Below, one piece after another: positions 6,699 to 33,773 of a DNA stretch of 64,000 nucleotides (position 1 is the first letter of the stretch; each line of letters opens with the position of its first letter). The notes below the pieces were generated by a model. The model had not been told where the DNA came from, ran no database searches, and saw only the letters and a list, made by a program, of their open reading frames with translations. Source of the stretch: Nymphaea colorata. Lineage: Eukaryota; Streptophyta; Magnoliopsida; Nymphaeales; Nymphaeaceae. The position numbers were made by a program, and so were the translations under genes. Location: positions 22,663,934 through 22,727,933 of the forward strand of contig NC_045138.2 in the NCBI RefSeq assembly GCF_008831285.2, in the 5' to 3' direction.

Positions 6699-8171
6699 TT
6701 AATCGTTCAAAGGTTCTTTGATCAAAAGGTTCATTTTCTCCATAAGAAATTCAAGTACGTCTTCTCTTCCTTCCTTCAAGAGCAACTTCCTCAACCTCTT
6801 GACAGTCGGACCAGATGGTCGGATGCCCTTTTCAATCATTTCTTCTAACAAAACACATGCCTTGTCCAGTTCACCGTTTTCACAAAGACCATTGATGAGC
6901 ACGGAGAATGTGTGCATGCTAGGAATAAACTGTTTGAGGCCCATGTATTTCCAAACCTTCAGTGCCATCTCCAACTTATCCATGTCGCAGAACATTTTTA
7001 TCATCATAGTGTACGTGTCTGAATCAGGATCGCAACACTTAATCATCCTCCTGAAAACACGATACGCCTCATCATTTTCCCTAGCATCAATAAGGCTATT
7101 CAAAAGTATATTAAAAGTTCTACAATTTGGAGAAACACCCTTGTTCTCCATCTCTTGCAAAACCCTGAAAACGTTCTTAAACTTCCTCACCTTACAGAAT
7201 GCACCAACCAAGGCATTATACACTGCAACATCAGCTCGTATCCCATTCCTTTCCATCTCTAGGAACGTTTCAACTGCATCGCCAATACGCCTCTCAGTAC
7301 CATACTGATGAACGAGAATGCTGTAGATGAATGAATTCGGCATACAGTTCCTACTTCTCATCTCTGCCATGACCTCCACTGCCTCCTCCATGCGGCCAGC
7401 TTTACAGAGTATGTCCACCATAATCGAGTAAGTAACGATATCTGGTTCACATCCATTCTCGACCATATCTCTGTAAACCTCCCTGGCTTTCGGCAGATTG
7501 GGCTCTCTGCCCCAACCCTCCAAAAGTATGCTATACGTTTTCGAATCGGGAACAAAGCGATCCTTCATCGAGTCGAAGATCTCCTGGGCCTTCCTGACAT
7601 TCTTAGACTTACAAAAGGCACCAAGCAAGCTATTGAACGCTGCTAAGTTCGGTGTCACTCCAAATTTATCCATGACATTGAAGGTATATATGGCTTCATC
7701 CACCTTCTGCGCCCTCGCGTACCTTCTCGTCATCACAGAGAATGTCTCAACGTTCAAGAGGCTCTTTCGGCGCATATCATTAACCAGATCCCACATCAAC
7801 TGATATTGCCTAATCTTGGCCAAGGAGCCTATCACCAAATGGTATGCTTTCACAGTGTGTATGTAGCTTCTCTGCTTCTCTGCCCATCGGAAAAACCGGT
7901 AGACTTGCATTCCGGCATTCTCGAATCGCTCGATTACCCTCTCAACCACATCAGGGGACGGCCTGATCCCACTTTCATCGAGCATCTTCTCTAGAACCAA
8001 TTTCGGTGAAGACATCATAATCTTGCAGACCCTCTCCGTAGGGTCTGTTGATTCAAGCGAATTCTCAGATTGGTGGTAGCTTCTCACCAGAACAGTAGAT
8101 TCTAAAGCATATGTTGGGCATTGCCGCATCAAAGTTTTGAGCTCATTGAGACTTAACAAATTCCTCATCAT
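6699..8171 (-). CDS. APPR6: P-class pentatricopeptide repeat protein, APPR6/MPPR6-like, probably mitochondrial
   Basis: An intronless frame of 490 residues starts at the ATG at 8171-8169; the frame stays open upstream only through a non-ATG extension. PPR proteins bind single-stranded organellar RNA, one base per 35-residue helix-turn-helix. The N-terminus (MMRNLLSLNELK...) is basic and weakly amphipathic, consistent with mitochondrial import. From about residue 150 there are roughly ten tandem P-type motifs, shown by VVTYSIMVDILCKAGRMEEA-type segments such as TFSVMTRRYARAQKVDEA, TYSILLEGWGREPNLPKA and TFSVLINGLCENGELDKA. No E or DYW domain follows. The sequence recalls Arabidopsis At1g77360 (APPR6) along its length, including the ending EKMN...EPL.D. 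The maize homologue MPPR6 acts in 5' maturation and translation initiation of mitochondrial rps3 mRNA; applying that role here is inference by homology. Confidence 0.9.
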   Translation of the reverse strand: MMRNLLSLNELKTLMRQCPTYALESTVLVRSYHQSENSLESTDPTERVCKIMMSSPKLVLEKMLDESGIRPSPDVVERVIERFENAGMQVYRFFRWAEKQRSYIHTVKAYHLVIGSLAKIRQYQLMWDLVNDMRRKSLLNVETFSVMTRRYARAQKVDEAIYTFNVMDKFGVTPNLAAFNSLLGAFCKSKNVRKAQEIFDSMKDRFVPDSKTYSILLEGWGREPNLPKAREVYRDMVENGCEPDIVTYSIMVDILCKAGRMEEAVEVMAEMRSRNCMPNSFIYSILVHQYGTERRIGDAVETFLEMERNGIRADVAVYNALVGAFCKVRKFKNVFRVLQEMENKGVSPNCRTFNILLNSLIDARENDEAYRVFRRMIKCCDPDSDTYTMMIKMFCDMDKLEMALKVWKYMGLKQFIPSMHTFSVLINGLCENGELDKACVLLEEMIEKGIRPSGPTVKRLRKLLLKEGREDVLEFLMEKMNLLIKEPLND

Positions 8172-8928
8172 TTTTTGGAGCAAAATAACAAAAGGAGGAG
8201 GTCTCACGAAGAACTAGGTGAAATCTGTATCAACCCACACACGAAGCAAACTAAGCACGATGAGCAGAGGACAAGAGAACATACAACAGAAGCTCCCCCT
8301 CGATTCATCTTCCTCTCCTTTCGTCGACGAAATAGGGTTTAGCGTTCAATTTCCGCTGGGGAAGCGGGGATGAACCAAAGCGAGAAAACGGGAATTTTCT
8401 TCGTAAAATGGCGGAAAACAGAATTCCCTTCGTGCCACTTAGCCGAACGACACCGGTTCGATCATTGCGGCAATATCACGGCCACGGGCGCCCACTTTGC
8501 GGTTAACCCTGAGGCGGACGGTGTCAAAGAACGCCTATATAATGAAGTGAATAAATATTTGAATGCAATTTTGAATCCGAATTTGAAGCAAATCTGAAAT
8601 CTAATTAAGAATTCGGACGATGAATGTCAAAATTTCATACCAGAAGCTAGTTGGGGCACATACATATTGACGTGCAATGTTGTTTGATTTCCTTGTTCAA
8701 ATGACAGAATTTGGTCCGACTGCATTTTGGATCTGAACTAGGTCCAACAAAATAGAGTTGAATTCAAATCTAAAACGTCTATTTATAACAATAAAATGGA
8801 TTGCAACTTTAATGCATTTACAAGACGAGGGTTGGACCCATTTATAAGAAGTCAAGCTCGGGTTGGCTCGACCATCAAAACCCAAGCATGTCTGGCTGCC
8901 GTCACTTGTTGACGTAGAAGTAGAGGGG
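8172..8928. other. 5' flank of the PPR gene
   Basis: The sequence immediately upstream of the PPR start (8172-8540, read on the minus strand) is more GC-rich than its surroundings and probably contains the promoter and 5' UTR; no defined motif was supported. From about 8560 it becomes AT-rich with AAATCTGAA-type words like those in hAT MITEs, suggesting old element debris. A short ORF at 8370-8597 on the plus strand has no family resemblance. Confidence 0.4.
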
Positions 8929-11172: not shown

Positions 11173-14100
11173 ATGGGGACGACGATCTCGCCTACGTCGC
11201 TTCTCCTCTGCAACTCATTCAAGGGACTCCCGGTCACTCCCCGTTCCTCGTTTCAGGCGAGGAACCGCTGCCCCAGGCTCCCAGGGACGGTACGAGCTTC
11301 CTGGCAAGAGGTCTGTGGAGTTCCATATTTCTCTCTTTCCTCCTCTCATTACACGGAGCTTGCTTTTTCTATGCATTTTGAAACTGTTTCTGATTTCCTG
11401 TTCTTCTCTCTAAAATTGGAGGTTGCCGGTGTTATAGTTTTCTCCGCGTTTCCGTTCACCGTCGTGAAGGCGATCGCTAATAGCTCTCTGGGAGCTGCCC
11501 TCCAGGAGAGGATGCAGGCGACTAAAGCGGCTGATGTGGCGAATTACTCTAAGAAGAGAGCCTTAGCAGAGAGGGTTCGGGCAGAGAGGTGAGTCCAAGT
11601 GCACAACTTTTTGTTGAGTTTCCTTTCTTTTTTAAAGTATTTCTCTGATTCGAATGATTCAGTGCGTGCATTCTATTTTTGACGGTTCATCTCTATGATG
11701 AGGGAACTTTTCATGTTTCGTTGGATTTGCATTTTTTGGGTGGCTGTTGAAAGGAATTTCAACTGCCCTTTGTTTGATACCACTGACTGTGGTACATTTC
11801 TACTTGATAAGACAGAACTTATCTTCCATTAGCGGCTTTTTTAGGTGGATGAAAAGGCTTGATAACATGGTCGCCTACAGTGATTAGCGTTCTCATTCTC
11901 GCGGCTGAAGTAAGTTAGGACTTCCACATTCTGACTGCAATAAATAATCAAATATTAACGATGGAGCTTGAGAGAATATCACTGTTCAAGGCTTTCAACT
12001 TTAGACGGTAATCTGCAACGAAGTATGAATATGCTATTCAGAAACGAATTTTATTTGTCTTTTATTTTCAACTGGTGGAAATCTCGTCGGTTTCTTTTCC
12101 TGCTTGAAAAGAAATGACCACAAAAGATTTATTTCTTGGAAATGGAAACCTGAAAATGCACAACTGCTTGCAGGAGATGAGTTGCTTGAGGAAAAACTTG
12201 CGATCTTTTCTGTTGATGCATATTTCTGATCTTCATTTTCATTAATGCTAGATTTTGGGCTGTCTAACAAGGACAGGAAAAATGAAGCAGCACCATAGGA
12301 ACGCAAATATTGATCAGGAAATTCAAAACTAACATCTAAAACAATCACAATCTGCTTCAATATTCTGGACAATTTTGTGATTGTTTTAGGTTTCTGGTTA
12401 TGTTTCATCAGCTGTCCTGTTATTTCTTATAGGTTCATTAAAATTTTAAAAACTTAGGTTAATGCCGCTTCCATGATAAGAAGCTTTATAGGCCGCAGAC
12501 TCAATGGTATTTCTTTTAGGTTATTTATAATTTCAGATACGAACAGACACACACACACACGTAGATCACAGTCACAAATGCAGGTGTTATTTACATTTTT
12601 GGGGAGGCGAAAACGAACTCCATTAGCAGTCTTTTAATGTATCTTCAGAAAGTCTGAGTAAATCTTGGCATCTACAGTGATGAAAAGAATGGGAAAAGGA
12701 AATTAAAGGGAAAGCTATTTGTTAACTAAATAAAAATAGGAAACATAACAGGAAAATAGTGAAATTATGGTTTTTATACATATTTTGTTACAAGAATGTT
12801 ATTAAATGTTTAAATAATTATCAAAATGTCAAAATAAATTGCAAAAAACTTAAAAGATTAACTTTTAAAAATCTCAAGATTATTGCATATTTACACAAGA
12901 AACTGAAATTGGTAATATTTTAAAAACACTGAGAACTTTCAAACAATTGAAAAAGAATCTTAAAAGTTAGATAAAAGATAAATCTTAAAATACATTCGTT
13001 GTGTTTGTTGTATCAGATAAAGGATTACTGCATGTTTACAAATCCCTTATGATTTTCTAATTTCTTGTTTCTTCTTCTTTCACCAAAATGTAGGTATCAA
13101 TCTTTGTTAGATAAATGTCATTGTTTATCAACTATAAACTCATGAATAATGCACAAATATATTCTCCATCGCTTCTAGCTGAAGCTTCTGTAATGTTTGT
13201 TACGCTTGTCCTCACTGAAAAATCTGTGTACATTTCATTTTGCCCCCAAAGTGCACCTATGTTCTTCTTGCAGTACAAGTATTTGTTTTTCCCAATAAGA
13301 GAAAGCTAAAAGATGTAGCATTACTTGCCTTGTTTCTCTCATCAGGTCCCATGGAGTAACTTTGTAATGTCCGTTTAGTTAGTGAAATTCTTTCTGTTTG
13401 TTGTATACTTGATGATTTCAGTGGTTTCTTTGTAGTTTCTGGTATGGTGAAGAGCGTCCCCGTTGGCTTGGTCCACTCTTGTATGATTATCCTCGGTATC
13501 TGACTGGAGAACTGCCAGGTGATTATGGCTTTGACATTGCAGGACTAAGTAAGGAACAGGTGGCTTTGGAGAAATATTTCAAGTAGGTATCATGCTGCCC
13601 TTCTAGTTGCCTCCACCTGATTTAACAGTTTATGTTTATAAGTTATAACACTAAGGAATTTCCCTCTACAGTTTCTTTGAATCCAAGATGATTATATGAT
13701 ATTGCACTAACAGATTAGGTACATGTTCAAAAGAATCATAATTAAAAGACTGAGTTGAATTGCTACTTGTTAGACTCTATTTAGGATGAAAAATGGTTGG
13801 TTTGGGTTCCATCTGGGTGTAGTATCACCTTTGACTCATTTGACGTGTAGTAATTGGATTCAAGCTTGGATTTGCACTTGCATAAAAATACTTGAACTGG
13901 ACCTGTCCAACCTTTAAATGATAACCTGCAATCCGAAACAAATCAATTCTGCCCAAAAGTGCAGTTCCTGCTCTTGGTGATTGTGAGACTTTAGGTCCCT
14001 GGAGTTGCATCAGTTAACAGGTTGCTGGTGGTTGCTTTATGTTTCTTAAAGGTATTTTCCGCCGCACATCCTTGTTTCAGATTTCAAGAAGGATCTTACT

Positions 14101-17100
14101 GGATTGTTCTCATACTTGAATCCAACTACTATGGTTCAGTTTGATATGGCAAATTTCAAACCAAAAATTAGTTTAAAAACCAAATTCAAAATTTTCTTAC
14201 GAAAACTCGACTAAATGATTTACCTTGAACTATTAACATTCCTAATTACGTGATTGGATCTCCATAGTATGTTCCATAGTCACACATATCATTAAGCGAT
14301 TTTAAATGTTCAAATTTTCCTAGGGTATTTTTCAGCAAAGCCGAAAATATAAGACCTCCATTTCTGAACGCATTTATTAGATGTGTTTACATTTATTTCC
14401 CTAGAATTACGTTGCTCACTTATATGGGTCTAGATGCTCAGAGGTAGAGCATGGAGCAGTTTTGTGTAGGTTTGATTGGAATGAAAATCAGATATGTATA
14501 TTTCAAATTATAATAAATTTATCAAGAGGGACATGAATGTCATCAAGTGATAAGACAATGGTAAGATAGTGAATTTACCTTACAGGAAATGAAGGAAATT
14601 TTTGAAATTGTTAGGATAAAATCTAGCAACATTACTTGTATGGCGAGAAATTTGAAGTGTGCACAGGCCATAGGAGTCTCAAATATGTATTTTCTTAGAA
14701 AGAGTTAAACATGAGACATCGACGATGGATGGAATACCTAAAGGGCTATGATTTTGAAATTCTTTACCATCCAGGTTGTGGTTGATGCTTTGAGTCGTAA
14801 GGAAAAAGGAACAGTAAGTTGAATGTTAACTCAACAATGGAAACTAATTGAGGACTTCATAGCTTGGAAACCTTTCATAGTTGTTGAGTCTGTGATTGTT
14901 TTGAAGGGACTACTTGTCAAGCCAGACATTCTAAATGAGATCCAAGGTAAACAAAAAGAAGATTCAGATTATGAACACCTAAAAAGCAGATCAAAAAACG
15001 AAAAATCAGGTATGTCTACAAATGAGAATTTTAACAATTTGGTTTAGAAAGCGTCTGTGGGTGTAGACGTTGATAAGTTGTGCAAGGTTATATTGGATGA
15101 GGCTGACAAGTCTAGGCACATTATTCATCTTGGCAATACAAAGATGTATCATGATTTGCATCAAAACTTCTGGTGCGAAAGTATGAAGAAAGACATTGCT
15201 GAGTGTGTTTTTAAATGTTTGACCTATCAATAAGTCAAGATTGAACATCAACGTCTAGGAGGTTTGATGCAGCACATTGACATACCACAGTAGAAATGAG
15301 AAGATATCACCATAGATTTTATTATAGGATTTTCAACGAACCGTAAATAGCACGATGTGATATGGTTAATTGTGGAAGGCTAACCAAATCTGCTCACTTT
15401 CTTCCTATTTGCACCAATTAGTCCTTAGAAAGTCTTGGAGATTTGTACATGGAGGAGATAGTAAGACTTTATGGTGTGCCACAATTGATAATTTCAAATA
15501 GAGATTTGCGATTTACTACAAAATTTTGGAGGCAGTTGCAACAAGCCTTGGGTACACGTTTGAAATTCAACACAGTCCTTCACCCTCAAATTGATAGTCA
15601 ATCAAAACGCACTATTCAAATTTCAAACATTGGAAGATATATTACGTGCATGTGTACTTGATTGGAAAGGCAAATGGGATAAACATATTAATTGGCAGAA
15701 TTTGTCTAACAGTTATCATGCAAGCATCGATATGACATCATACGAGGCATTATATGGGTGACCATGCCGATCACCTATTTACTGATCTGATATTGGTACC
15801 AAAAGCATTGATGTACCTATAGTGATTCAACATTTCTCCGAGCAAGAACAAAAGATTAGACAACGATTCTTGGCAACACAACACCGATAGAAGAGTTATG
15901 CCAACAACCATTGCGAGAGTTTGCTATTGATGTTGGCGAACACGTTTTCCTTAAGGTTTCAAAAGACATTTTTTGTTTTCGAAAGAAAGGTAAACTCAAC
16001 CTGTGATATATCAGACTATTCGAGATTTTGGATAAAATTAGTGCTACTGCTTATAGATTAGTTCTACCGCCACAACTTGAGCACGTTCACAATATGTTTT
16101 GTATTTCAATGCTGAAGAAGTATGTCGATGACCCAAGACATGTGATCAATCATGAAGCCATCACGATAAAAGAATACCTAACTTCTAAATAAATACCTAT
16201 AGAGATTGTAGATCATCTCATTAGCATTTCACCAAGAAAAAGATTCCCATGGTGAAAGTTCGATGGTTACACCATGGATTTGAAGAATGTACATAAAAAC
16301 TAGAGGGCACGATGAAGAGGCAATATTTTACCCTATTTAGTAACTAGTTTTCTTTAGATTTTGCGGACAAAATTTCTATAGGGAGAGGGTAATTGTAAAA
16401 GTTCTATTTCTGAACACATCTATTACATATGTTTACATTTATTTCCTTAGAATTATGTTGCTCACGTATAAGAGTTGTTCAGAGGTACAACATGGAGCGT
16501 GCTTCATGCAGATTCGATCGAAATAAAAATGAAACATGTATATTTCAAATCATAATAAATTTATCAAGAGGGATGTGAATGTCATTAAGGGCCCGTTTGA
16601 TTGTCAAGTGAAATTTAACGTGGTAAATTTACCATGGTAAATTTTTCTGGAAAAATTTACAGGATGAAATTTCTCCTTCTTCCAATATGAGGCCCTGTTT
16701 GATGCACAGGAAGAGTTTAACATGGTAAAACGACTGATCTTTCCAGTTGAATACGAGGCGAGCAGAATCTACAAGCCCAAGCGCAATGTACATTTTCATA
16801 ATGGAATTACATAATACTGAATCCAACTCATGCCCAAGTTTCATCCCGTGGCAATGAATCGACCTGCCAATCTCAGGAAACCCACAATGACCAGAGCCAG
16901 CTGTAATGCTCACTCAGCTGCTCAAATTGGGCCTCAAATCACCCATCAACAGACTATTAAAAATCGCAAGCGCCACATTGAACTCACCAACTTTGCAGTA
17001 ACCATCAATCATCGCATTCCATGAGACGATGCTTCTTTTGGGCATTTTATCGAACACCTTGTGAGCAAGCTGTTTGTTACCAGTTATCCCGTACAGATGG

Positions 17101-20100
17101 TGGAGTATTGAATCACCCATCTCATTCTGTGGACAATAACAGATGGTGGAGTATCTGGGGACAATCATCGCATTTTATCAAATCATCGCATCGCATTCTG
17201 TGGACAATAACAGATGGTGGAGTATTGTTCATGCCCAAACTTCATCCCGTGGCAATGCATCGCATTCTGCCAATCTCAGGAAACCCACACTGACCAAAGC
17301 CAACTGTAATGCTCACTAAGCTGCTCAAATTGGGCCATGGGATGAAGTTTGGGCATGAAATTTTGGAAGGATTTCCAAAATTGGGGGAAGAGCAAATGCA
17401 ATCTTCTGTTTATCATATAACTAACAAAAATATTCAAGACGAAATGGAGGAAATCCTTCTGACGCACCTGAGGTTCAGAAAGGGAGGGAGAAATTTGTTC
17501 TCTTAGCGTGCCGGGAGTCTCCGTCCGCCGCCGAGATGGAGTTGAGGATCGCCGTGGTCGGGATGGGGCAACTGTGGCAATGGCTGATGCTGCCCTGTTT
17601 CTGCGTCCCTCTTCCCTGCCGGTGAGAGCGGCGACGCCTCTGGTGGGACGGTGAGAAGGCAGAATGCGAGGGAGGAGGAGAGGTGCGACGGTGAGAGCCT
17701 TCCCTTTTGAGCGGGTGAAATTTCACCCGCTCCTTTTTTGCATTAAACGGGTGAAGTTTCACCCCGTTTGATGCGTTTTCAGTCGGGCGGGTGAAATTTC
17801 ACCCGCCCGTACACATTTCACCCTCCCACCATATTTCACCCGACAATCAAACGGGCCCTAAGTGAAAAGAAGGGTAAGATAGTAATTTTATCTTAGGGGA
17901 CATAAAGGAAATTTTTGAAATTGTCGGGTAAAAAAAATTTCAAAAGATGCAGGGACATGATTGAAATTTCATAAATTGATAAGGGCACTTTGGTCCAAGT
18001 AAAAGATTAGGATCTAAACACTAATTAAGGTAATTTAAACATGTTTTTATTAAGGTAAACAAGTTTAATTAAAGTTAAGCTTAATTAAGAATAAATTATA
18101 ATAAAATATAATAGAATAATAATAATATATAATATATTTAAGATAAGCATGAGAGAGCACCGTTCCTTTAAGAGGAAGTGCCCTTTACGTGTGCAGAAAG
18201 GAAAGAAAAGAGAGGAGGAGAGAAAGAGAGAAGAGAGAAAGAGAAAAAGAAGAGAGAGAAAAAGGAAGATAGCATATCTCCAATGGATCATCACCATGCA
18301 GACGCCTTGTAGCTCAGGTGATTTTAACGTGCCACAATAGTGAGCAAGGGAGATCTTAGAAGATCTGATAGTTTTGGTCTGTGGACATCTATGCAATCGT
18401 TATTTTGACTTTTGTACATATTTATGTAGTTTGTAGCTCTATAACTAGTCTAGGATGGTTGGTGGGACCTTTGATATGTAAATTGTAAAGTTGATAAATA
18501 TAAAACTGCATAAATAAATCATCAATAAATTACTGATGAAGTTACTCGCACCACCACAAAGCAACACTAGAGAGTAATCTAAGGCTGGGGCCTGCATGTA
18601 CATCTATGCACAAAACACCATTTCGTGGCTCACTAGCTCATTGCTCTGAGACCGTTTAAAAGTTAAAACATCCTGAAAAGAATACTCTGCAAAGTGCTTT
18701 TCTTATCGCTGGAATTTATGCTCATACTATGTTCAATTCTGGAGCTACTCATTCGTTTACTTCTAGTAAGTTTGATGAGTTGTTGCCATTGTGAGGTGAA
18801 ACTGTGGGATTTACTTTGGGTAATGCATTCAACTTTAGGAGTTGAGACTATTTGCCACTTTTGTTTACCTCATGTTGAAGTTTTCATTGTTGACCAGAAC
18901 TTTCATGAAAATTTAATTGTGTTAGATACGGATAATTATGATATGATTTTGGGCATTGGTTGGTTGTGTGAGCATTATGTTTCTCTAAATTATCATGATC
19001 GAAAGATTTTATTTGCTCCACCCAGTTAATTGGCATTGGAATACCACTTGGGTTTGAAATGCCAATTCGAGATACTATATCTGCTATGAATGCCTAAAGG
19101 TGTATTGAAAATGGTGCTACAGTATCCATTCCAAGTATTGTTTGGTCGGAGGATTTGCCAAAAACACTGGCAGACACTAAAGTTGTGAAAGACCTCCCAG
19201 ATGTCTTTCCGAAAGATTTGTCAGCCCTACTGCCAACCAGAGAAATAGACTTTGTTATTGACATTCTCCCTAGGACGACCCATGTTTCTATGGCTCCTTA
19301 CAGGCTGGCCCCAACTAAATTGGCAAAGTTGAAGAAGCAATTACAAGAATTACTAGGCAAAGGGTTCGTTAAACCAGCATCTCACCTTGGGGAGCACCAA
19401 TATTATTCATGAAGAAGAAGGATGGATCATCTGGTTGTGTATTGATTACAGACTTCTTAGCCAAGTGACCATAAAAACTAAGTATCCTTTGCCCAGAATT
19501 GGTGATTTATTTGACCATTTATGCAGAGCTGGTCTATTTTTGAAGATTGATTTGAGATCCAATTACCATCAAAGAGAAAGAGAGAGAGAGAGAAGAGAGA
19601 GAAAAAGGAAAATAGCATACCTTCAATGGAGCAAAGACAGCGCGGACGCCTTGTAGCTTAAGTGATTTTGGCGTGCCACAATAGTGACCAATGGAGATCT
19701 CAGTAGATCTGACAGTTTTGGCCTGTGGACTTCTATGCGCCCGTTATTTTGACTTTTGTACAGATTTGTGTAGTTTGTGACTTTATAACTAGCCCAAAAC
19801 GGTTGGTGGAACCTTTATATGTAAATTATAAAGTTGGTCTAGATTGGTATGGGTTTAAGCACATGAATTTTATTTTTAACCACACTATCGATGAATGTGA
19901 ACCTGGTCCTTAGACTAATTAGAGTCATTAATTACCTAGGACAGGTCGACGCTCTAAGACATATCAAACCTATGCCAACTACACAGGTTATGTGATTGTG
20001 GATGTTGCGCTACCCACAAAAAAATATTGGAGTACTTTTTGAGATGTTACTACTCTTAAATGGTATCAGAAGGGTGAGCTAGTGAGCCATGGAATGGTGT

Positions 20101-23100
20101 TTTGTGCATATGCAAGTCCAGGCCTCTGATTACTCACCAATCTTGCTTTGTGGTGGTGCGAGTAACTTAATCAGTACTTTATATTAATGATTGATTTATG
20201 TGGTTCTATATTTATTAACTTTATAATTTACATATTGAAGGTCTTATCAACCGCTATGGGCTAGTTATAGAGCTGCAAACCACTCAAATATGTACAAAAG
20301 TCAAAATAACGGTCGCATAAATGTCTGCAGGCCAAAACTGTCAGATCTACTAAGATCTACCTTGCTCACTGTTGTAGTATGCCAAAATCATCTGAGTTGT
20401 TGGGCGTCCGTGCGATCTTCGGTCCATTAAAGGTATGCTATCTTCTTTTTTCTCTCTCTTCTTTCTTTTCTTCTCTCTCTCTCTCCCCTTCCTTCTCTTC
20501 TTTCCTTTCTTCACATGTAAAGGGCACTTCCTCTTAAAAGGACGGTGCTCACTCATTCTTATCTTAAATATATAACAATATATTATATTATATTCTTAAT
20601 TAAGCTTAACTTTAATTAAAAATTTTTAGCTTAATAAAAACATGTTTAGATTACCTTAATTAGTGTTTAGACCATAATTTTTTACTTGGACCAACATGCC
20701 TTTGTTAATTTATGAAATTCCAATAATGTCCCTACATTTTTTGAAATTTCAGTTTTACCCTCACAATTTCAAAAATTATCCTAATGTGAATTACTGTCTT
20801 ACCCTTGTCATATCATTTTATGACATTCATATCCCTCTTGATAAATTTATTATAATTTTAAATATACATGTTTGATTTTCAAACTGATCGAACCTACACG
20901 AAGCATGCTCCATGCTCTACTTCTAAGTATTTAAACTCTTATAGGTGAGTAATGTAATTCTAAGGAAATGAATGTAAATACATTTAATAGATGTGTTTAG
21001 AAATGGAGGTCATACAATTATCCTCCCCCTAAAGAAATATCGTCTATGAAATTTAGGGCGTATTTGGCAGGCGAGGATTCCACTGTTTTAGTGGGATCCC
21101 TATCTAGGTTTTTACAAAATTTGCTTGGTGTGCTGAACGTTGGACACTAGTCTTGGTTTTGAGAGGCAAAATTAGGATTGGTTTCCATGGATTATGATCC
21201 CACCATGGAAAAAAAAAGTGTCTCCAACTCTCCAAGGTAAGCCTAAAAAATAAGCTAACATATTTAGAGTGAAAAGAAGACAGTAACACTAACTGGAGAC
21301 ACCAAAAAATCTTGGACTCTTGGTTACAACCGTTCCATAATCAGGCCGATTAGGAACAAGGCTGCTAAGGGCTGGCCTGTAGGCATTCGACGGCAGTGTT
21401 AGGCAATTCGGGGGCACCATGGATGGAGCTCCGGCCTTTGTGAGCACCCAAGTTAGGCCTGTTGCTGGAAGGAGAGAACATGAAGAATGAAGAGAAGCAG
21501 TAGAAATGGCAGGTTCTGAACGGCCTCACTCCTGCTCCTCTTTGTGTGTGGCTGTGTAGAGAGAGATGGAGAGAGGCACTAGGGTTGCAATTGGGAGGTT
21601 GGCCGCACGGTGAAGGAGGTTTTTAAACAGACAGAAATAGCTGGTGATATTTTCGATAGTTTGGTTTTCTCAATTAGAGATTGGGTAAATAAAAAAAAAG
21701 AGTCAAATGGTTTGGTGGAGGAGGAAGAAGGCTGATTCTGGTGAGTAGGAGGAAAGGGTTTTCCTGCAAGCTTTCGATTAGATTAAAGTTAGAAATTGGG
21801 TATCTCACATTTTTCTCCATGAGAGGCAACAAACATTGGAATGGGATCCATGAGATTAAAATACCTATCAACCAAACACACATGCTTTCTAGAATGCGAA
21901 TGCAATTCATTCGTTAGCTGGTTCTATGATTAAAATCCTGGGATTTTGATCCCAAGATTCTAATCCTGGTGCTGCCAAACACTACTTGTTACCAAATAAG
22001 GTAGGGGCATTGCCTCTTCATCTCATCCTTTGGTTCCCATATACATTCTTCAATTTCATGGTGTAACTATCGAAGAGAATCTCTTTGTTTCATAGCTTCC
22101 TGGTGAGATGATCAACAATCTTTAGAGGCATTTCTTCAGAAGTTAGTTCTTCTTTTATTGTGACGTCTTCATGACTGATCACATGCTTTGGGTCATGGGC
22201 ATACTTTTTTTTTTTTTGTACATGTCATGGGCATAGTTTCTTAGCATTGGAACATGGAACACGTTGTAAGCAGTAGCACCAATTTTCTCCAAAATCTCGA
22301 ATGGTCTGATATATCACGGGCTGAGTTTTCCTTTCTTTTCGAAACGAAAAATGCCTTTGTTTGAGAAACCATAAGGAAAGCGTGTTGGCCAACGTCAATG
22401 GCAAGCTCTCAATGATGGTTATCGGAGTAATTCTTTTGTTAGTCATGTGCTGCCAAGAGTCGTTATCTGAACTTTTGTACTTGCTCAGAGTAATGTTGGA
22501 TCGCCATAGGTCCATCAATGTTCTTGGCTCTAATATCAGACCAGTAAATAGATGATCGTCATGGTCACCAATATAATGCCTTGTATGGTGCCACATCGAT
22601 GCTTGCATGATAACTATTGTCATAGGCAAATTCTACCAATTTAATATGTTTATTCCATTTGCCTTTCCCATCAGGTGTACACGCTTCCAATGTTTGAATA
22701 GTGTGTTTTGATTAACCATCAGTTTGAGGGTGCATTTGCAGTAAACCGCAGATCTCTGTCTGAAAGTATTGATTGTGGCGCACCATAAAGTCTAACTGTC
22801 TCCTTAATGTACAAATCTTCAAGACTCTGGAAGGACTGATTGGTGCGAATAGGAAGAAAATGAGCAGATTTGGTGAAGTCTGTCCACAATTACCCATATC
22901 GCATCGTGTTGTTTACAGGTCCTTGAAAGTTTTACAATAAAATCTATAATGATATCTTCTCATTTCCACTGCCTTATGTCAATGTGTTGCATCAAGCCTT
23001 CTGAATGTTGATGTTCAAATTTTACTTGTTGACAGGTCAAACATTTAGAAATATACTCAGCAATATATTTCTTCATACCTTCCCACCAAAAGTTCTGATG

Positions 23101-26100
23101 CAAATCATGATACATCTTTGTATTGCCAAGATGAGTAATGTGCCTAGACTTGTGAACTTCATCTAGTATAACCTGCAACTTATCAACGTTTGGCACCCAT
23201 AAATGCTTTTTGTACCACGTTACTCAATTCTCATCTATAAACATACCTGATTTTTCGTTTTTTGATCTAGCTTTTAGGCGCTGATAATCTGACTCTTCTT
23301 TTTGTTTACCTTGAATCTCATTTAGAATGTCTGGCTTGACAAGAAGTCCCTTCAAAACAAGCGTAGACTCAACATCTACGAAAGGTTTCCAAGCTATGAA
23401 GTCCTCAAACAGTTTCTATTGTTGAGTTAACATTCAACTTAATGTTCATTTTTCCTTACGACTCAAAGCATCTGCCACAACATTAGCCTTACCTGGATGA
23501 TAAATAATTACAAAATCATAGTCCTTTAGGTATTCCATCCATCGCCGATGTCTCATGTTTAATTCTTTATGAAAAAATACATATTTGAAACTCCTATGGT
23601 CTGTGTACACTTCAAATTTCTCGCATTACAAGTAATGTCGCTAGATTTTACTCCAACAATTTCAAAAATTTCCTTCATTTCCCTAAGGTAAATTTACTAT
23701 CTTACCATTGTCTTATCGCTTGATGACATTCATGTCCATCTTGATAAATTTATTATAATTTGAAATATACATGTCTGATTTTTATTCCGATTGAACGTAC
23801 ACGTAGCACGCTTCATGTTTTGCCTCTGAGCATCTACACTCTTATAGGTAAGCAATGATATTCTAGGGAAATAAATGTAAACACATCTAATAGATGCGTT
23901 CAGAAATGGAGGTCTTACAGAAAATCTTGGGAAAAATCACAATTTTTTTAGGAAAATAAATAAATCCTAAAACTTATGAAAAAAATAAAATAAATGAAAA
24001 GGTAACGAGAAAACATAAAAATAACTTGATAGAATGATAAAATTGATGTTTTAGTAATGGTAGAAATGAAGATAAATAATTTAACTTAAGGTTTAAACTT
24101 TAAGCACAAAAAATGTAAAAATAATGATAAAAAGTGCAATAAAAATGTGAAAAAATCATTTTAGATTTTTTTTTTTCAAAAAAAAAAAGAAAACGATGGT
24201 TTTTTTTCATTATTTTAATGTTTTATTAGGTTTTTTTTCAAAAAAGATGGGTTTTTGTGACTATTTTATGTTCTTTGACTTTAGAAAGTTCTTTAGACGA
24301 TGTTCCAATCAGAAATTGCTGGGAGATAGGCTCCTGACCATTTATTGCTAATGAACTAATATGTACAACCGTACGAAAGAAAAGGAAAAAGAATCAGCAA
24401 CTGTACAAGTTCTCGATGGATGTTGTGCATTGTTAATTTGTTTAATGTTCATTCTTCTCTTGCCATAATCTATCAGTAGATTGACCTTATGCCAATTGAA
24501 GGTATTTATTATTTAAGACACCAGGGTCTGTAGTATCAAGCAATAATCTTGCACAGTTCAGGAAGGAAAAGTTTCTGTACAACCTTATAATCTAACATTA
24601 TATTTGGCAAACACTGGTCAGCTCGATGGTGATTCTACAGCTTTATTTTTTTGTTTTTTAATCATAGTCTGCCTTTTGACAATATATTTACTTTGTATGC
24701 ATTGGAGAAAGTGTTTTTCTGTGTGTATACATACTGTGGAAATTTTGCTATGTCCACTGTTCTTTTTTTTTTTTAATGTTCAGAAATAAGTGTTAACAAT
24801 AAATAAAAACTTGTTTACTTTTCTATTGTTCTGACTAGTTTGACAGTTGATCATCCTGCTGGCCATCACTACCTTGCTTAGGAGCCTGATTCTTAGTGGT
24901 AACTTGCACTTTTAAACTACCTATGGTTTATTCCTATAGATTAACATATGGAAATCACATTAGCTGTATACTATAGTGTACACTATGGGTCCTTGTTACA
25001 AATCTCGACATTCTTTTCTAGGAACATGGACAAACAGGAAAACAAGGAAGAAAGCAAAATTGTGATGTTTTGAAAATATTGCCAAAATGAAAATATCATG
25101 TTTCTATTCGGCATTATTTCCCTTCTTCAGAAAAAACTAACTTTTAAGTTTTGACAAACCTTTTGATCTTTATTTTAATATTTTAATAACTATTTTGATC
25201 TTTGACCTATGTTTTTGTAACAAAAATGGTGAAAAAATCAACTTTCATAATCTTTTCTTTTTTAGTTTATTGAATTCTTGAATTTTTCCCAAGAAAAACA
25301 AATATTTTGTTTACTGTCGAGAAAAACCGTGCCAATGGAGACCTGATGACAATATTTGCGACAATTGTATGAATTAATTTTTGATGTTTCTTACCATTTT
25401 TGATCGATATGTTTGTCCATCTGTAATATTATTTGTGAAACATGATAGAAAATAAAGAGGTAAGGCGGTAATTTTTTGTTTCAGCAAAAGAAAAAACGAG
25501 AAATTTAGGAGACTTGTTGGTGTTGTTATTTTTTTATCCTATCCTTTCCAGTGTAGAGTCTAAAGGACTGCATCTTCTGTCCTCTGTTTAAAAACACGAC
25601 AAGTTGAGAATAGTTCTTCACCCTGAAAAAGGAAAACAAAGGAACCAAAAAAGCAAAAGGTGCAAGGAAGCTGAACAACAAACCCACAACACATTTAAAC
25701 CACGACATCTCTTAAAAGTAGCTCTCAACTTGAGTGTCTCTTTAAATTGAATGTGATGTTCTAAAATTTGCTAACATATCACGGCTGAACCGTATGTTGT
25801 AGGTTAACATCCTCCTGCTTCTCCAATATTTTTCATCACATTCTTGCTAGTGATGACTTTTGAGCATGTCTGTTGGTTCATTTGAGGTCACGACTTTGAG
25901 CTTGTAAGGACAGTGATATAATTGGCAAATCTGGTGAGAATGGGAGAGTAACAACTAGATAAAATTGGAAGGATCAAGTTATTTGAGACCAAACAAGAGA
26001 ATTGTTGGAAAAAATGAAAGCAAAAGTGAATTGCCTTCCACCATGAATGTGGTTTATTTCCAAATCCAATAATTTGCTTTATGTAATTTTTATCATATAT

Positions 26101-29100
26101 AATTAAGCTGGCTGAGTAGCAGACCGGTTTGATGGTTTCTTCATGTTAGTCCAATCCCCTAGATGTGATGCTTTGCTTCTCAAGTAAACAAGTATCACAC
26201 ACACATCATGCTGGACTGTATGGTTTGGGTGGGAACGCCTGTTTTCTATGTATATGCTGATGCAGTTGAGCCTTTATAATATGCTATGATACAGTCTCTT
26301 ACCAACCATTCAGCCCATATCTCTTAGAGCAATTTGAGAAAAGTATGTAGTCTGATCATGGTGCACTGATCTTCACAGCTGCTTCTTTTCTGCTTTTCTT
26401 GAAGCTTTGAAGTACTCCATGCACGTTGGGCTATGCTTGCATCTCTTGGAGTTTTGATTCCAGAGCTGCTAGACCATTTTGGTCTTGTCCACTTTGTAGA
26501 GCCTGTTTGGTGGAAAGTTGGCTATGCAAAGCTCAAGGCAAGTTGCTACTGTTCTAATCCTTTAAATGACTATTAACCATGTTAGTGAATAAGTTTAATA
26601 TAAAAAATGACTGTTGAGGTCGAGCTCATGATAAAGCAAATGGAAACGTCCTTTTTGCATCATTTTGAATAATCGAGAGCAACTTAAGCTTTAAATGTGG
26701 TGCATTTTCTTTTTTAATGGATAATACAGCATACAGGGTCAATGAGGTGTCAATCGCGCACTATATATGTATGCTATTGTGTATACATAGATACTCATTT
26801 CTGCATGAGTACCTTCTCTTCTCGCTCTGTATTTCAGTGTAATCTGTATTGTCCAATCATTTGAAGTAAGTGTAGTTTATGTAGGCTGGTTAGGTTCACT
26901 TCCAAGTGAATATTTTTCTTATCAAGCCAATACATAAGCATGTTTTAAATGTATTTTGCAATCTATTGTTCAATAGTTGATTTTATCTCGTCCATCTTAT
27001 CATGTTTTTGAAACGTAAGATTGACGCAATGAGTAGCAGATGAGTCCCAAGAATGATCTGTACTATGAAGCCAACAATCTGTCCATAGCTGTATAGTTTG
27101 CTGCATTGTCTGTGGTGAAGTCTACAATGTTCTCAGGTTCAATTTCTTTCAACAACGATATCAGATTACAGATATATGAAATAGAACATTAGTAGTCTTT
27201 TGGAGTATTTGGCAAATTAACAGACTTCAAGAACATAATACCTTTTAAGACAGTGTATAAGAAATTTATCAATGTTCTTGTCATTGTATCAATCCATCCT
27301 TCTATTATGATACTGCATCCTGCATTCATCCAACTTAATCTCAATTCATCATAATTTCTTACCTCTTTAACATGTAGCAACAATTTTGCCTCTCAGTTGA
27401 TAATAACAAGACATTGTGTATCCAAGGTCTGTATAAATAATTGCATTTGCCATAACTTGAAAGTGAAATGAGTTGGCCATATTAAATGCACATGCGAATA
27501 TGTGCATCATAGAACCATCACCCAACTGCATTATTTGCCTATTTTATCATATCATTGAGAGTCATAGCTATTTGAATGTCCGTTTAAGAACTAAAATAGT
27601 ATAAAAAGCAAAAAGTCTTTTGATTTAGGCAGAAGCATTCAACCTGCTACTAGGTGCTTTACCACAAAACTTACCACCTGATCAATCTCTTCTCTTTCTA
27701 TTGGAACTACCTCCTGCATGCATCACTCTGTTTCCTTTTGCCCTTGAACTACCCACTATCTGATTTTCACTAACATCAATGGGATAAAAGAGAGGAAGCT
27801 CCATGCCATCCTCAATGATCTCATCGTCCACTTCCCAAGGCTCAACATGGCTCATTTTTACTGCCAGCATGTCTTTTTCTAATGTTTTTTGCTTTTAGAG
27901 CATTAATCATGTCCATGCATTGCTTTGGCACAAATGATGGCAATTCTTTATCCAGGCATGAAGTCACATTGTCATGCATGTTGGTTAAATGGTGTTTTAG
28001 GTGAGAGGTTCATACTGAGAAGTCCTTTTACAATACCTATAAATAATTTTCAAGCAATCGTTTTCCTTCACCTGTGTGCACCGTTATCATGTGAATTTTT
28101 CAAGCCATATCTTCAAAAGTAGCGGTCGATTTTTATACATTTCAAACAGTAAAAATTGGAATCTCATTTTCTTCTATTGCAAATCAATCTCCCATGTGCA
28201 ATTTTAGCTCCGAGTCAATACTTTCTTCCTCAAAATGGCAAAATCTTGCTAACACAACTTTTTTAAGAAAATCTAGGAGTTAGGTTTGAGAGTTTTTTTA
28301 ATGTCCAATACTGAAATTTAGGGCTTCAGGCGTCTATTTCTTTCCTCTGCCTCTCCTGTACTGTACAGTAGGAGGTGTACAACACCGTGTCATATGATAG
28401 GGCCCTGTATCTATGATATCAATGTGACGTGCGGTGCACCCTTGTAGCTGGTGACAAGGGTATAATTGATCCTCCAAAAGTTATGATGTGTATCTTATGT
28501 GCAACACACTATTAGGTATATATGAGGTCCTTTCCTGACTTAACAAAAGAAGGGGCTTGAAATGAAAAGTTCCTTTTCATAATAAATCCATGTGACGGCC
28601 CATAAAATTTGAGTACATCCTGATAGGTTAGTAGCATCCAATTTGTAGCACAAATTCTACCTCCAAGCCTATCTCACTAGGAGATATATATGGGAGTGGC
28701 AGAAAAGTTGTGATGTATGGTGCCTGCTGAATTTAGCCTCCTATTAATCGTACCGAGCTTCAATCTCAAGTGTTGAGATGTAGGTATTTGCTGTATGCAG
28801 CACAGATTATTTGATTGACCTTTTGTCCTTGCTGATTGTTTCCTTCTAACTAGGCTATTTTTGTACCTATGAATATTTGTGTAGTAGTTGATCTGTTAAG
28901 TTCTTCCTTCTATGAGAGGTTCGTTATTGGGATATTGGATGCCAATTTCCAACTACTTGGAGCCAGGGAATCAGCTGGCAACACACACACAGAGAGAGAG
29001 AGAGGTCTTTGTTCCTCAATTGTTTTCTCAATCACTCTTTTGACTTTTCTCATGTTAGGCTAAAATATATATTCCTTCAAACAAATATATTTAAAGCTTA

Positions 29101-29674
29101 CCTTTAAAGATTTTGTAGTCTTCTACACTTTTATTTTAGTAAATAAGTGATTAATGCCTCAATGGAATAATTTTCTTTCCCTTTTTTTCTTTTTTGCAGG
29201 GGGACACTCTAGACTACCTTGGGATTCCTGGCCTGCATATAGCTGGAGGTCAAGGAATCATCATTATTGCCATATGTCAAGCTCTTCTTATGGTGATTGA
29301 CCTATTCTTGCAATTTTCCAGGACTGATTCAGCATTTCTATTTGTGGATCCGTAACCGCTGATGTGTTTCTCAGGTTGGGCCTGAGTATGCAAGGTATTG
29401 TGGCATAGAAGCTCTGGAACCTCTAGGCATCTATCTACCAGGGGATATCAATTATCCAGGTGGGGTTCTTTTTGATCCGCTGGGCCTCTCTGAGAATCCT
29501 ACGAATTTCGAGGAATTAAAGGTGAAGGAGATTAAAAATGGACGCCTAGCAATGGTTGCATGGCTCGGATTTTTTCTTCAAGCAGCCGTTACAGGTAAAG
29601 GGCCAGTTGAAAACCTTCTGGACCACCTCTCTGATCCTCTTCACAACAACTTGTTTTCCTTAATCAACCGTTAG
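11173..29674 (+). CDS. LHCB7: LHCB7, chlorophyll a/b-binding antenna protein (six exons)
   Basis: Exons: 11173-11310, 11422-11588, 13436-13582, 26405-26537, 29200-29292 and 29375-29674. Phases agree at every junction and give 325 residues. LHCB7 is a rarely expressed member of the light-harvesting family of thylakoid pigment proteins. The ATG at 11173 opens a Ser/Arg-rich plastid transit peptide. Exon 2 adds a hydrophobic segment ([19 protein letters not shown]), a probable extra membrane span. Exon 3 has [13 protein letters not shown] and the LHC signature [10 protein letters not shown]. Exon 4 carries helix one ([10 protein letters not shown], with the Glu/Arg pair). Exons 5-6 carry helix two ([17 protein letters not shown]). 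The last exon carries helix three ([16 protein letters not shown]). Length and order fit the family. Intron 1 is 111 nt with no frame effect, intron 3 is 12.8 kb of mostly transposons, and intron 4 has a GC donor (AAG|GCAAGT). The reading frame is intact. Confidence 0.93.
16629..17168 (-). pseudogene. Captured PPR gene fragment (PLS-type) inside the Harbinger-like element
   Basis: Reading the minus strand from 17168, the frame shows [20 protein letters not shown], then [20 protein letters not shown]. After a stop codon at 16914-16916 it continues in the same frame with [20 protein letters not shown], then [20 protein letters not shown]. These are consecutive PPR motifs of the PLS subfamily (the VSWNAMI.GY and AD.V.N..M.MY words), unlike the P-class gene at 6699-8171. 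The fragment starts and ends inside the repeats of the element, has one internal stop and no start context, so it is a transduplicated piece and not a working gene. The parent gene is not in this window. Confidence 0.85.
17228..17336 (-). repeat. Second, partial copy of the captured PPR segment
   Basis: About 108 bases here repeat 16829-16937 in the same orientation (shared CATGCCCAA.TTCATCCCGTGG and GCTCAAATTGGGCC). They encode the same minus-strand PPR segment with a few changes. Nearby, ACAGATGGTGGAGTAT occurs at about 17093, 17140 and 17212. These arrays show that the captured DNA was rearranged by local duplication within the element. Confidence 0.8.
18694..19566 (+). pseudogene. Ty3/gypsy protease and N-terminal reverse transcriptase remnant
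   Basis: Around 18725-18790, frames with shifts read a gypsy aspartic protease start (NSGATHSF is visible in one frame), followed by [12 protein letters not shown] and [10 protein letters not shown], the usual protease tail. At 19155-19412 comes the pre-RT/RT start ([20 protein letters not shown], then [20 protein letters not shown], then GFVKPA). At 19430-19570 comes [18 protein letters not shown] followed by [14 protein letters not shown]. The RT stops abruptly there, before the YxDD motif, where an LTR-like segment begins. Frameshifts and stops make it non-functional. It is on the plus strand like copy A and could be the missing front half of a related element. Confidence 0.8.
19571..19835 (+). 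repeat. LTR fragment of the same gypsy family, third copy
   Basis: This segment matches 18230-18495 in the same orientation (GA-rich run, then ATAGCATA, GACGCCTTGTAGCT, GTGATTTT, GTGCCACAATAGTGA, GTTATTTTGACTTTTGTACA). It also matches the complement of 20240-20460. It abuts the truncated RT on its left and an unrelated stretch on its right, so both of its ends are deletion junctions. Confidence 0.8.
19836..20060. other. Short segment between LTR fragments, unrecognised
   Basis: About 225 bases without a resemblance to the LTRs or pol segments around it. It is bounded on the right by TGGTATCAGA at 20061-20070, which looks like a primer-binding site complementary to initiator tRNA-Met. It may be leader or LTR-end sequence of a deleted element; its identity is open. 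Confidence 0.4.
21056..21985. mobile_element. Non-autonomous DNA element inserted in gypsy copy B
   Basis: Copy A continues uninterrupted where copy B carries about 930 extra bases. The insert begins GGGCGTATTTGGCAGGCG and ends GGTGCTGCCAAACACTAC, an imperfect inverted repeat around TTTGGCAG. Near both ends, GGGATCCC/GGATTCC-like and GGATTTTGATCCC words form further inverted repeats. No target-site duplication could be fixed because both flanks are diverged, so the superfamily is undetermined (Harbinger or hAT are possible). Nothing coding was recognised within. Confidence 0.65.
22960..23196 (-). pseudogene. Gypsy integrase zinc-binding domain fragment
   Basis: The open stretch holds an H2C2 zinc finger: [24 protein letters not shown], then [12 protein letters not shown]. 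Spacing of the two His and two Cys fits the N-terminal HHCC domain of Ty3/gypsy integrases. The copy A counterpart at 15089-15285 has lost its second zinc Cys (a tyrosine is read there) and has a stop, so copy B is the better preserved. Sequence before and after is out of frame. Confidence 0.85.
23920..26404. other. Remainder of LHCB7 intron 3
   Basis: AT-rich intron DNA with long A and T runs (about 24160-24245), no ORF with family resemblance and no defined repeat ends. It closes with a pyrimidine-rich stretch and the acceptor CTTGAAG before exon 4 at 26405. Together with the gypsy block it makes a 12,822-bp intron (13583-26404). Confidence 0.6.
27000..28130 (-). pseudogene. hAT-family transposase relic (BED zinc finger and DUF659) in LHCB7 intron 4
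   Basis: On the minus strand, about 27990-27900 reads [16 protein letters not shown] with [11 protein letters not shown], matching the histidine end of a BED finger and its linker. At 27870-27682 is an acidic linker ([12 protein letters not shown]). At 27383-27189 is the DUF659 core: [20 protein letters not shown] followed by [18 protein letters not shown] (family form: TGCSIMSDGWTD..RTLINFLV). At about 27135-27075 is [17 protein letters not shown]. The order is that of plant hAT-like DUF659 proteins. Stops and frame changes separate the pieces, the catalytic remainder and the C-terminal dimerisation domain are missing, and the upstream half of the finger is eroded. It lies antisense to LHCB7. 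Confidence 0.8.
28979..29006. repeat. (CA)n(GA)n microsatellite
   Basis: Short run of CA followed by GA dinucleotides in LHCB7 intron 4. Confidence 0.85.
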
Positions 29675-32017: not shown

Positions 32018-32839
32018 AACTGATTCGAGACCTAAGTGGTTCTAGGTTGCACCCTTCAACTCGAAACGTTATGCATGTTACTATTTTGTAGTTGAAAAAG
32101 TAGCATCAATGGGAATCAACATTCATACCAACCAGTTAACTAGTGAGAAAGGATCAAAGTACATTGGTTTTTCACAATGAAATGAGTATGACTATAATTG
32201 GAAAACATCGTGGAAATATTAATGACTTTCTGGTCTCAAAATCGTCCACGTCTGCAGGGAGGGAGCAACCAATAGTCATGATCACATCACACCGCACTGG
32301 TTGCTGACAATTATGATTTTTACCATATGAATGAAATCACTGATGGTGTGATTCTAAAAGACACTTTCTATCATAAGCGCTCCAAACCGTTCTTTGAAAC
32401 AGTAACCAGCTTCTTGTATAAATCTAGTGTGGCAAAGTTGGGCGGATGTGCAACAAATGAAGCAACCAAATTTGGCTCCACAATTTGCACATGGTCATAT
32501 GTGAGCTCTGAATTTTGGTCGGCGCATCTCAAAAGTTCAACTCATGTACTGAACTCAGTCTGGCCCGAAGCTCTTGCCAGCAGTCCAAGCCCGGCCCGTT
32601 TAGGTATCAGACTGGGCTCGACCATAAACTTCATACACATCGGGTGCCCGGTTCGATGTCTACTCTTATTTGAAAACTTTGACATTTCATTTTTTAATAT
32701 CCCAAAAATATTTGATGATATATCAAGAGTTTTTAAGAAAGTCATCAGCGACACACAGAGTTTTTAAGGGAACCATTGGCGGACACACAAAGAGTTTTTA
32801 AGGAAGCCATCGGCGATGCACCAAAAGTTTGTATGTCAG

Positions 32840-32871
<32 letters not shown>

Positions 32872-33000
32872 ATAAAGAGAGAAAGAAAAAGAAAAAGATA
32901 ATAAAAAAATGTGGGGAGATGAATTTTAAATATATATATTGCACCAAGTGGGCCCTCAACACTACTCGGGCCAGCAGCCCCATCTGATACCTGTCTGTTG
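32018..33000. other. Intergenic with a hAT-like repeat fragment
   Basis: At about 32540-32680 is a GC-rich segment (GCCCGAAGCTCTTGCCAGCAG, then CCATAAACTTCATACAC, GTGCCCGGTTCGATGTCTAC and CTCTTA). It is the reverse complement of parts of the element at 33774-34642 and so a second copy of that family. A degenerate triplicated word, AGAGTTTTTAAG.AAGCCATCGGCGA, occurs at about 32726-32815. A (TA)n tract lies at about 32838-32871. A plus-strand ORF at 32327-32767 covers this composite and has no recognisable domain. Confidence 0.5.
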
Positions 33001-33565
33001 TTACTTGAGGCGATCAAAACTTGCATCTCTTCCAACTTTCTGCATCTAACAACAAGTGTATCTCCCACATCCAATCTTTGAAACGGCATATGAACGAAAT
33101 CTGGATCCTTCAAGCTAATGCAATTGAAAAATATTTATAGCCTTAAGTTTTATGATTGGCATCAACGTCTAGATGTTGATTATGGTTTTAACGCCTTTGG
33201 TGTTCTACGTGAAAGAAGAACATTACGTACGTTAGCCCAGACTTCTAGGAATATTTTGAAAGAAGAACATTACATACGTGAAAGTAATTAAATATATGTA
33301 ATGTTCTGTGATGGGCAGGACATGTTGTATGTTCTATTTCGATGGACAAACCTCTTAACTTTCATGTAGAACACCAAAGGAGTTAAAACCGTAATGGTAT
33401 GTTATGCCAATCATAAAACCTAAGGCTATAAATATTTTTCAATTGCATTAGCTTGAGGAATCCAGATTTTGTTCATATGCCATTGCAAAGATTGGATGTG
33501 GGCGATAGGCTTGTTGCTAGACGGAGAAAGTTGGAAAAGATGCACGTTTTGTTCGCCTCAGGTAA
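33001..33565. repeat. Inverted duplication (hairpin), arms ~210 nt, built from a gene fragment
   Basis: Positions 33001-33214 are the reverse complement of 33359-33565 with scattered differences, separated by a 144-nt loop that itself contains AGAACATTAC and GTAATGTTCT. The outer part of each arm is coding-like: arm one on the minus strand reads DPDFVHMPFQRLDVGDTLV, arm two on the plus strand NPDFVHMPLQRLDVGDRLV. Each continues with a basic RKLE.M..L.AS stretch. In arm two the frame ends at a good donor-like CCTCAG|GTAAGG. The inner part of the arms is non-coding. I do not recognise the protein family. A transcript through this locus would fold into a long, imperfect stem. Confidence 0.8.
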
Positions 33566-33773
33566 GGGTGGACAACATGATTGGTATCGGATGGGTAATT
33601 AGATACTTGGCCTATGATGGGTCAGGCTTGGGTTGAATATTTGACTTTCGGGTTGACCTGATAAAAAAAATTGTCAGGTTGGGCTGGCCCGAATAGAGTG
33701 TTGGGGGCCTGATCGCTGCAATATATATATATTTTTGAGATATTAAATAATAAAATGTCAAAGGTTTGAAATA

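Follow-up and report, generated by a model that had tools for sequence, protein, structure and literature searches.

A 64,000-nt stretch of Nymphaea colorata DNA (contig NC_045138.2, positions 22,663,934 to 22,727,933; hereafter the window) contains, at 16589-17858, a 1,270-bp element which we assign, at a probability of about 0.82, to the non-autonomous PIF/Harbinger transposons of the Pack type, with a scrambled piece of a PPR gene as its cargo. This unit has PIF-like ends, sits at a TAA of a gypsy-derived repeat and holds a broken PPR piece that is partly re-copied inside it. A sequence-only reading of the window had proposed a Harbinger-like Pack element with a PPR fragment here; the ends, the target site duplication (TSD), empty copies of the insertion site and matches to PPR models all support that proposal. 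The parts of the element referred to below are as follows.

16586-16588 (no strand): left TSD, TAA
16589-16605 (+): left terminal inverted repeat (TIR), 17 bp, perfect; its likeness to the right end fades about 30 bp from the tip
16606-16742 (no strand): left subterminal region with degenerate palindromes; its border to the captured part is approximate
16691-16705 (+): internal end-like word GGCCCTGTTTGATGC, oriented as a left end
16743-17110 (-): captured PLS-type PPR coding fragment, colinear, with one in-frame TGA
17111-17360 (no strand): scrambled block, largely short stretches copied again from the captured fragment, their junctions overlapping
17229-17336 (-): partial second copy of 16828-16933, 90% identical over a 108-nt alignment, with a sense codon at the position of the first copy's TGA
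17334-17359 (+): 26-nt inverted re-copy of 17228-17253, one mismatch
17481-17705 (no strand): GC-rich block, 63% GC, holding an ATG frame (ATG at 17536) without a family match
17710-17809 (no strand): three near-perfect palindromes built on GGGTGAAATTTCACCC
17740-17774 (no strand): the middle palindrome, with two end-like words back to back (17742-17751 minus, 17763-17772 plus)
17842-17858 (-): right TIR, 17 bp, perfect
17859-17861 (no strand): right TSD, TAA

Ends, target site and empty copies

The TIR sequence GGGCCCGTTTGATTGTC is found at 16589-16605 (+) and 17842-17858 (-), with TAA on both outer sides; these are the only two matches at up to three mismatches in the 64-kb window, for which shuffles gave a mean of 0.07. 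Our chance control for the ends was a set of 40 Markov-simulated 64-kb sequences with the nearest-neighbour make-up of the window, in which inverted ends measuring 11 bp or more and flanked by a TAA or TTA duplication numbered 0.15 per sequence on average, and none was longer than 11 bp. The perfect ends and TSD of the element exceed this chance expectation, and the end search and simulations together confirm the perfect 17-bp TIRs and TAA duplication that had been read at 16589-17858. The real-window scan returned another TAA-flanked pair, of 15 bp, at 18133-20572 within inverted gypsy-derived arms, and a few TTA-flanked pairs of 11-13 bp, one of them a TA run; none of these has ends similar to those of the element.

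We place the element in PIF/Harbinger because its TSD, end length and end sequence agree: the TSD is of the 3-bp TTA/TAA kind, and the ends are short TIRs of the GGG/GGC...GTTTG type, here 17 bp long. Autonomous plant PIF/Harbinger elements have TIRs of 14-25 bp. In keeping with Pack-TYPE elements, host gene (PPR) sequence lies between the TIRs and was moved with them as one unit, and no transposase match was found inside the element in the 16 frames scanned. Pack-MULEs, which are Mutator-like elements (MULEs), have long TIRs and duplicate about 9 bp of their target, whereas here the perfect ends measure 17 bp, similarity between the two ends is gone beyond about base 30, and the duplication is 3 bp.

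The surrounding repeat has three further copies in the window, at 14350-14621 (+), 20753-21044 (-) and 23646-23919 (-). Identity to the left flank is 81-82% in all three of these paralogous empty copies, and none of them matches the element sequence at E up to 1e-5. In the copies at 14350-14621 and 23646-23919 the left and right flank matches overlap by 3 bases at the site, which is what a 3-bp duplication predicts. In the copy at 20753-21044 the flank matches span the site but leave about 10 bases between them, and the match on the right is the weaker one (71% over 65 alignment columns, from base 12 of the flank piece). Since three copies of the repeat lack the insert, the PPR piece arrived with the element and stays within its ends; a test proposed along with the sequence-only reading, of whether the PPR part extends past the terminal repeats, was run in this way and gave no refutation.

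Captured PPR sequence and its rearrangement

The colinear PLS-type PPR stretch covers about 370 bp and is read on the minus strand from 17110 to 16743. Its first part, in the frame 16914-17174 (-), gives three Pfam models above cut-off: PPR_2 (E 1.2e-11, 45 bits), PPR (E 2.7e-11, 43.4 bits) and PPR_1 (31.4 bits). The second piece, in the frame 16629-16913 (-), is weak in Pfam (PPR_2, E 0.08). Joined with an X in place of the stop, the two pieces give a gap-free alignment of 119 residues with a solved synthetic PPR-DYW protein (whole chain 1.3e-56, best stretch 4.9e-18) and one of 107 residues with a PLS9-PPR design. The stop that splits the stretch is the in-frame TGA, at which the second copy has a leucine codon. 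Among 104 ungapped sites compared, the copies show 7 differences (Jukes-Cantor distance 0.071); a small gapped place near 17263-17266 is not included in this count. The sequence-only reading had given about 540 bp of PLS-type PPR sequence and a second partial copy; the PPR identity stands, and so does the second copy (17229-17336, 90% over 108 nt), while the length does not, as colinearity ends at 17110 and the sequence is scrambled from 17111.

An open PPR gene of 504 codons with ten PPR_2 stretches lies elsewhere in the window, at 6702-8213 (-), some 5 kb away from the first exon seen of the light-harvesting gene (below). We rejected it as parent of the cargo, at about 27% identity over at most 74 residues.

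Exact 10-mers from 16589-17110 cover 182 of the 250 bases of the scrambled block; in 500 Markov-resampled sequences this coverage averaged 3.4 bases and never exceeded 34. The chain of re-copied pieces forms eight neighbouring pairs, one of which was dropped (one copy described twice), leaving seven junctions; the pieces 17111-17121 and 17139-17154 stand outside this chain. Neighbouring pieces overlap by 3-6 bases at five of the seven junctions and are one base apart at the other two. The 10-base word CATCGCATTC occurs at 17010, 17189 and 17258, so that two template switches may have reused one word. Judged by its arrangement, the block resembles a product of repair synthesis with template switching, and its re-copied pieces bear out the internal re-duplication of captured sequence that had been proposed earlier.

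The ends, too, recur inside the element. The motif CCYGTTTRAT is found five times in the 64-kb window, always within the element: at the two outer ends and at 16694 (+), 17742 (-) and 17763 (+). The chance expectation for the whole window is 0.66, and none of 100 shuffles reached five; three internal words would arise at random with a probability of about 4e-7, a figure that ignores the derivation of the motif from the element itself. The three palindromes of the right part have a DNA folding z-score of -8.7. They lie at 17710-17732, 17740-17774 and 17784-17809, with a common core and differing outer arms, each nearly self-complementary, and each looks as if made by snap-back copying. The internal ends could stem either from neighbouring insertions that fused or from a duplication of terminal sequence through slippage or acquisition; the latter two have been discussed as the source of terminal duplication in MULEs with multiple TIRs (PMC3310237). 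A candidate inner element at 16691-17751, with a TGA duplication of its own, was set aside as chance: its ends start at different bases, and TGA is not a PIF target.

Our Pfam search for other genes covered 16 frames of the element, drawn from the listed frames at least 30 codons long. Apart from the two with PPR, just two of them gave any Pfam line at E up to 1, both below cut-off. One is the longest stop-to-stop frame in the element (148 codons, 17279-17722, minus strand), which hit just DUF3861 at E 0.16 and nothing in NCBIfam. The other is the frame 16668-16811 (+), which hit FYRN at E 0.0022 and 18 bits, against a cut-off of 24, over 16713-16787 (+); neither PDB sequences, searched up to E 10, nor NCBIfam gave a match for it. 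Over about half of the FYRN-matched stretch (16749-16787), the sequence exactly complements PPR codons of the opposite strand, and as a sign of a second gene the match is probably chance, given this antisense overlap and the 16 frames scanned. Neither match is counted as a gene.

Over the GC-rich block, the ATG frame (within 17425-17625, plus strand) has no Pfam match at E up to 1 and none in NCBIfam, a library built for prokaryotes; no Pfam match was found for two minus frames, or for the plus frames 17472-17651 and 17588-17707. The suggestion that a second gene had been sampled at this block thus found no family match in the Pfam or NCBIfam scans. Nor did 16400-18100 contain any RNA family match at the Rfam gathering score.

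Proposed origin and competing explanations

We propose that the unit moved by cut and paste, an autonomous relative supplying the transposase and its DNA-binding partner protein. Both the PPR piece and the scrambled copies of it may, at roughly even odds, have been laid down by template-switching repair synthesis at short matches, for which abortive gap repair after excision is a possible setting. Terminal sequences would also have been duplicated, as the three internal end-like words suggest, either in that repair or when neighbouring insertions fused. The element would now be decaying as an intron insertion, its PPR piece antisense to a chlorophyll-binding protein gene; a PPR protein is most likely not made from it. 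A more specific version, which we hold as tentative and rather doubtful, is that a gap-repair polymerase hopped among the element's ends, the PPR gene and a second, GC-rich locus at 3-6-base matches, which would have yielded the scrambled cargo as well as the additional end modules; if true, it would be a second plant capture route beside fusion of neighbouring insertions.

Several points weigh against this account. No second element with the same ends exists in the 64-kb window, none of the 16 scanned frames has a Pfam match to a transposase, and the third empty copy is inexact at the site. Two of the seven junctions in the scrambled block lack overlap. Random junctions overlap by 3 or more bases in 6.1% of draws, which is not a clean probability because the junction borders were picked from best matches, favouring overlaps. 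The scrambling could also predate capture, having arisen in a decaying parent locus. The link between the scrambled and the GC-rich block is weak and suggestive only, being one 12-base inverted match that 4 of 259 control windows equal.

The competing explanation that we take most seriously, though we still regard it as unlikely, is that two or more related PIF insertions flanked the PPR piece, that their inner ends decayed and that the outer ends then moved the whole. The three internal end-like words argue for such a fusion, particularly the two that stand back to back at 17742-17772, as a two-element junction could look, and are followed by a 96-bp stretch up to the outer right end; the model has been proposed for Pack-CACTA and Pack-TYPE elements (PMC8903248). 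However, the word at 16691 is oriented as an outer left end, which a simple two-element model does not predict, inspection of the sequence showed no TAA/TTA duplication beside the internal words, and fusion alone leaves the scrambled PPR copies unexplained. A working role is considerably less probable: the element would donate a PPR exon, or small RNAs acting on PPR genes. The unit is intronic with its PPR piece antisense, and antisense transcripts have been proposed for a grapevine CACTA element with a PPR fragment in opposite orientation (PMC2528002). The in-frame stop, the lack of a complete gene among the listed frames and the absence of an Rfam match at the gathering score nevertheless speak against it.

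The remaining two explanations concern the transposon itself, and both are highly improbable. Gene capture is best known in Mutator-like elements, and an origin in Mutator or in another superfamily such as hAT or CACTA would suit that pattern, but the duplication is 3 bp, TAA, and the end is short and does not start with CACTA. TSDs are 8 nt in hAT, 5 nt in CACTA and TA in Mariner, while TTA/TAA is the TSD of most PIF elements (52.4% in rice, 81.2% in maize) (PMC8903248). Least probable of all is that nothing transposed here, a pre-existing PPR pseudogene having been flanked by two separate chance insertions. We found no point in its favour: the ends are perfect and matched, two empty copies join with a three-base overlap and the third with a small gap, and none matches the PPR sequence or the element.

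Genomic setting and relation to known capture systems

Near the repeat around the element there are Pfam matches to RVP_2 at 18667-19026 and Integrase_H2C2 at 22963-23223, remains that we take to indicate Ty3/gypsy; four other retroviral-looking frames near it have no Pfam match at E up to 0.01. This gypsy-derived repeat forms a large inverted arrangement (14350-18687 versus 20030-23917, larger pieces 74-86% identical) in the same intron as the element, through which an intron transcript could fold into a long double strand. Three pieces of a gene for a chlorophyll a/b-binding protein were detected, at 13437-13541 (positions 2-17 of the profile, a weak match with E 0.18), 26403-26546 (positions 33-75, E 5.1e-9) and 29363-29671 (positions 97-161, E 1.2e-17). 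All are on the plus strand and in profile order, so the element sits in an intron of roughly 12.8 kb, a length for which the splice sites are approximate; the captured PPR piece is antisense to this gene, which is presumably LHCB7. The sequence-only reading had placed the element in a gypsy LTR in an LHCB7 intron; nesting in a gypsy-derived repeat, a putative LTR, within an intron of a chlorophyll a/b-binding protein gene is supported.

The window holds other repeats. A Copia element at 37581-42727 has 283-bp end repeats that are 97.9% identical; its long open reading frame (ORF), 39002-42043 on the minus strand, has gag, integrase and reverse transcriptase domains, the last continuing in the ORF 38447-38998. 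A large foldback at 32590-33850 consists of a 617-bp imperfect palindrome between arms of 122 bp that are 85% complementary. At 44299-45415 there are two direct repeats, each about 285 bp long, which share 96% identity and start 834 bp apart, and two adjoining copies of about 0.9 kb, 78% identical, lie at 5-1833.

Similar ends are known. AndroPIF of melon has the TIR GGGCCCGTTTG, equal to the first 11 bases of the element's TIR, and the SANT1 protein binds its ends; unlike the Nymphaea element it encodes SANT1 and a nuclease, and the accessible text does not mention a captured gene for it (PMC11161486). The MtPH elements of Medicago have PIF/Harbinger ends of similar sequence (MtPH-E begins GGGCCTGTTTG) and internal rearrangements, with empty sites serving as evidence, and their rearrangements and proliferation were attributed to abortive gap repair; captured gene pieces, which distinguish our element, are not mentioned for MtPH in the accessible part of that paper (PMC2213677).

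That Harbinger-like capture is little described, as the sequence-only reading had it, was overstated in view of work on grapevine in 2008 (PMC2528002) and maize in 2022 (PMC8903248). Maize Pack-PIF elements (Gisby and Catoni 2022) are likewise non-autonomous, with mostly TAA/TTA TSDs and short captured coding pieces; cluster 18 comprises 72 Pack elements with an average length of 535 bp and a 163-bp gene piece (PMC8903248). The Nymphaea element differs in its re-copied, partly inverted cargo and internal end-like words, and the words template, filler, microhomology and PPR are absent from the main text of that paper (PMC8903248). Among the grapevine transduplications, Pifvine-3 PIF elements carry captured genic sequence and, separately from these, a PPR coding piece was captured in opposite orientation; in contrast to our case, the carrier of that PPR piece is a CACTA element, and the sequence captured by Pifvine-3 lies in a long 5' region of up to 3.5 kb (PMC2528002).

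Single traits have parallels further afield. MULEs with multiple TIRs, including a Pack-MULE, share the extra internal ends in a gene-fragment carrier, but they are of the Mutator superfamily, with long TIRs that are in tandem at both ends in 48 of 61 (PMC3310237). Microhomology template switching has been proposed for capture by animal Pack-TIRs (gap filling or FoSTeST); besides their animal hosts, these differ in that the accessible text says nothing of cargo being copied repeatedly, although the FB4 elements themselves carry tandem duplications (PMC8277862). Turmoil-1 of C. elegans is a Harbinger element with captured coding pieces, which lie within long inverted terminal repeats, and, unlike ours, it encodes a transposase (PMC2572040). 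We found no Pack-PIF with template-switched cargo in the literature searched, which did not extend to most subscription journals; the term Pack-PIF itself turned up there in a single paper.

The element is thus a clear, decayed example of an already known process, gene capture by PIF elements. What is mildly unusual is that a single Pack-PIF records both repeated end modules and what looks like template switching. Taken alone, it remains one decayed example. How plant DNA transposons acquire host genes is not fully settled: a 2026 review sets out the fusion of neighbouring insertions and leaves room for a second mechanism still to be discovered (PMC13317346). Given parent genes and sister copies, cargo that keeps its copy junctions, as here, could help to separate the two capture mechanisms.

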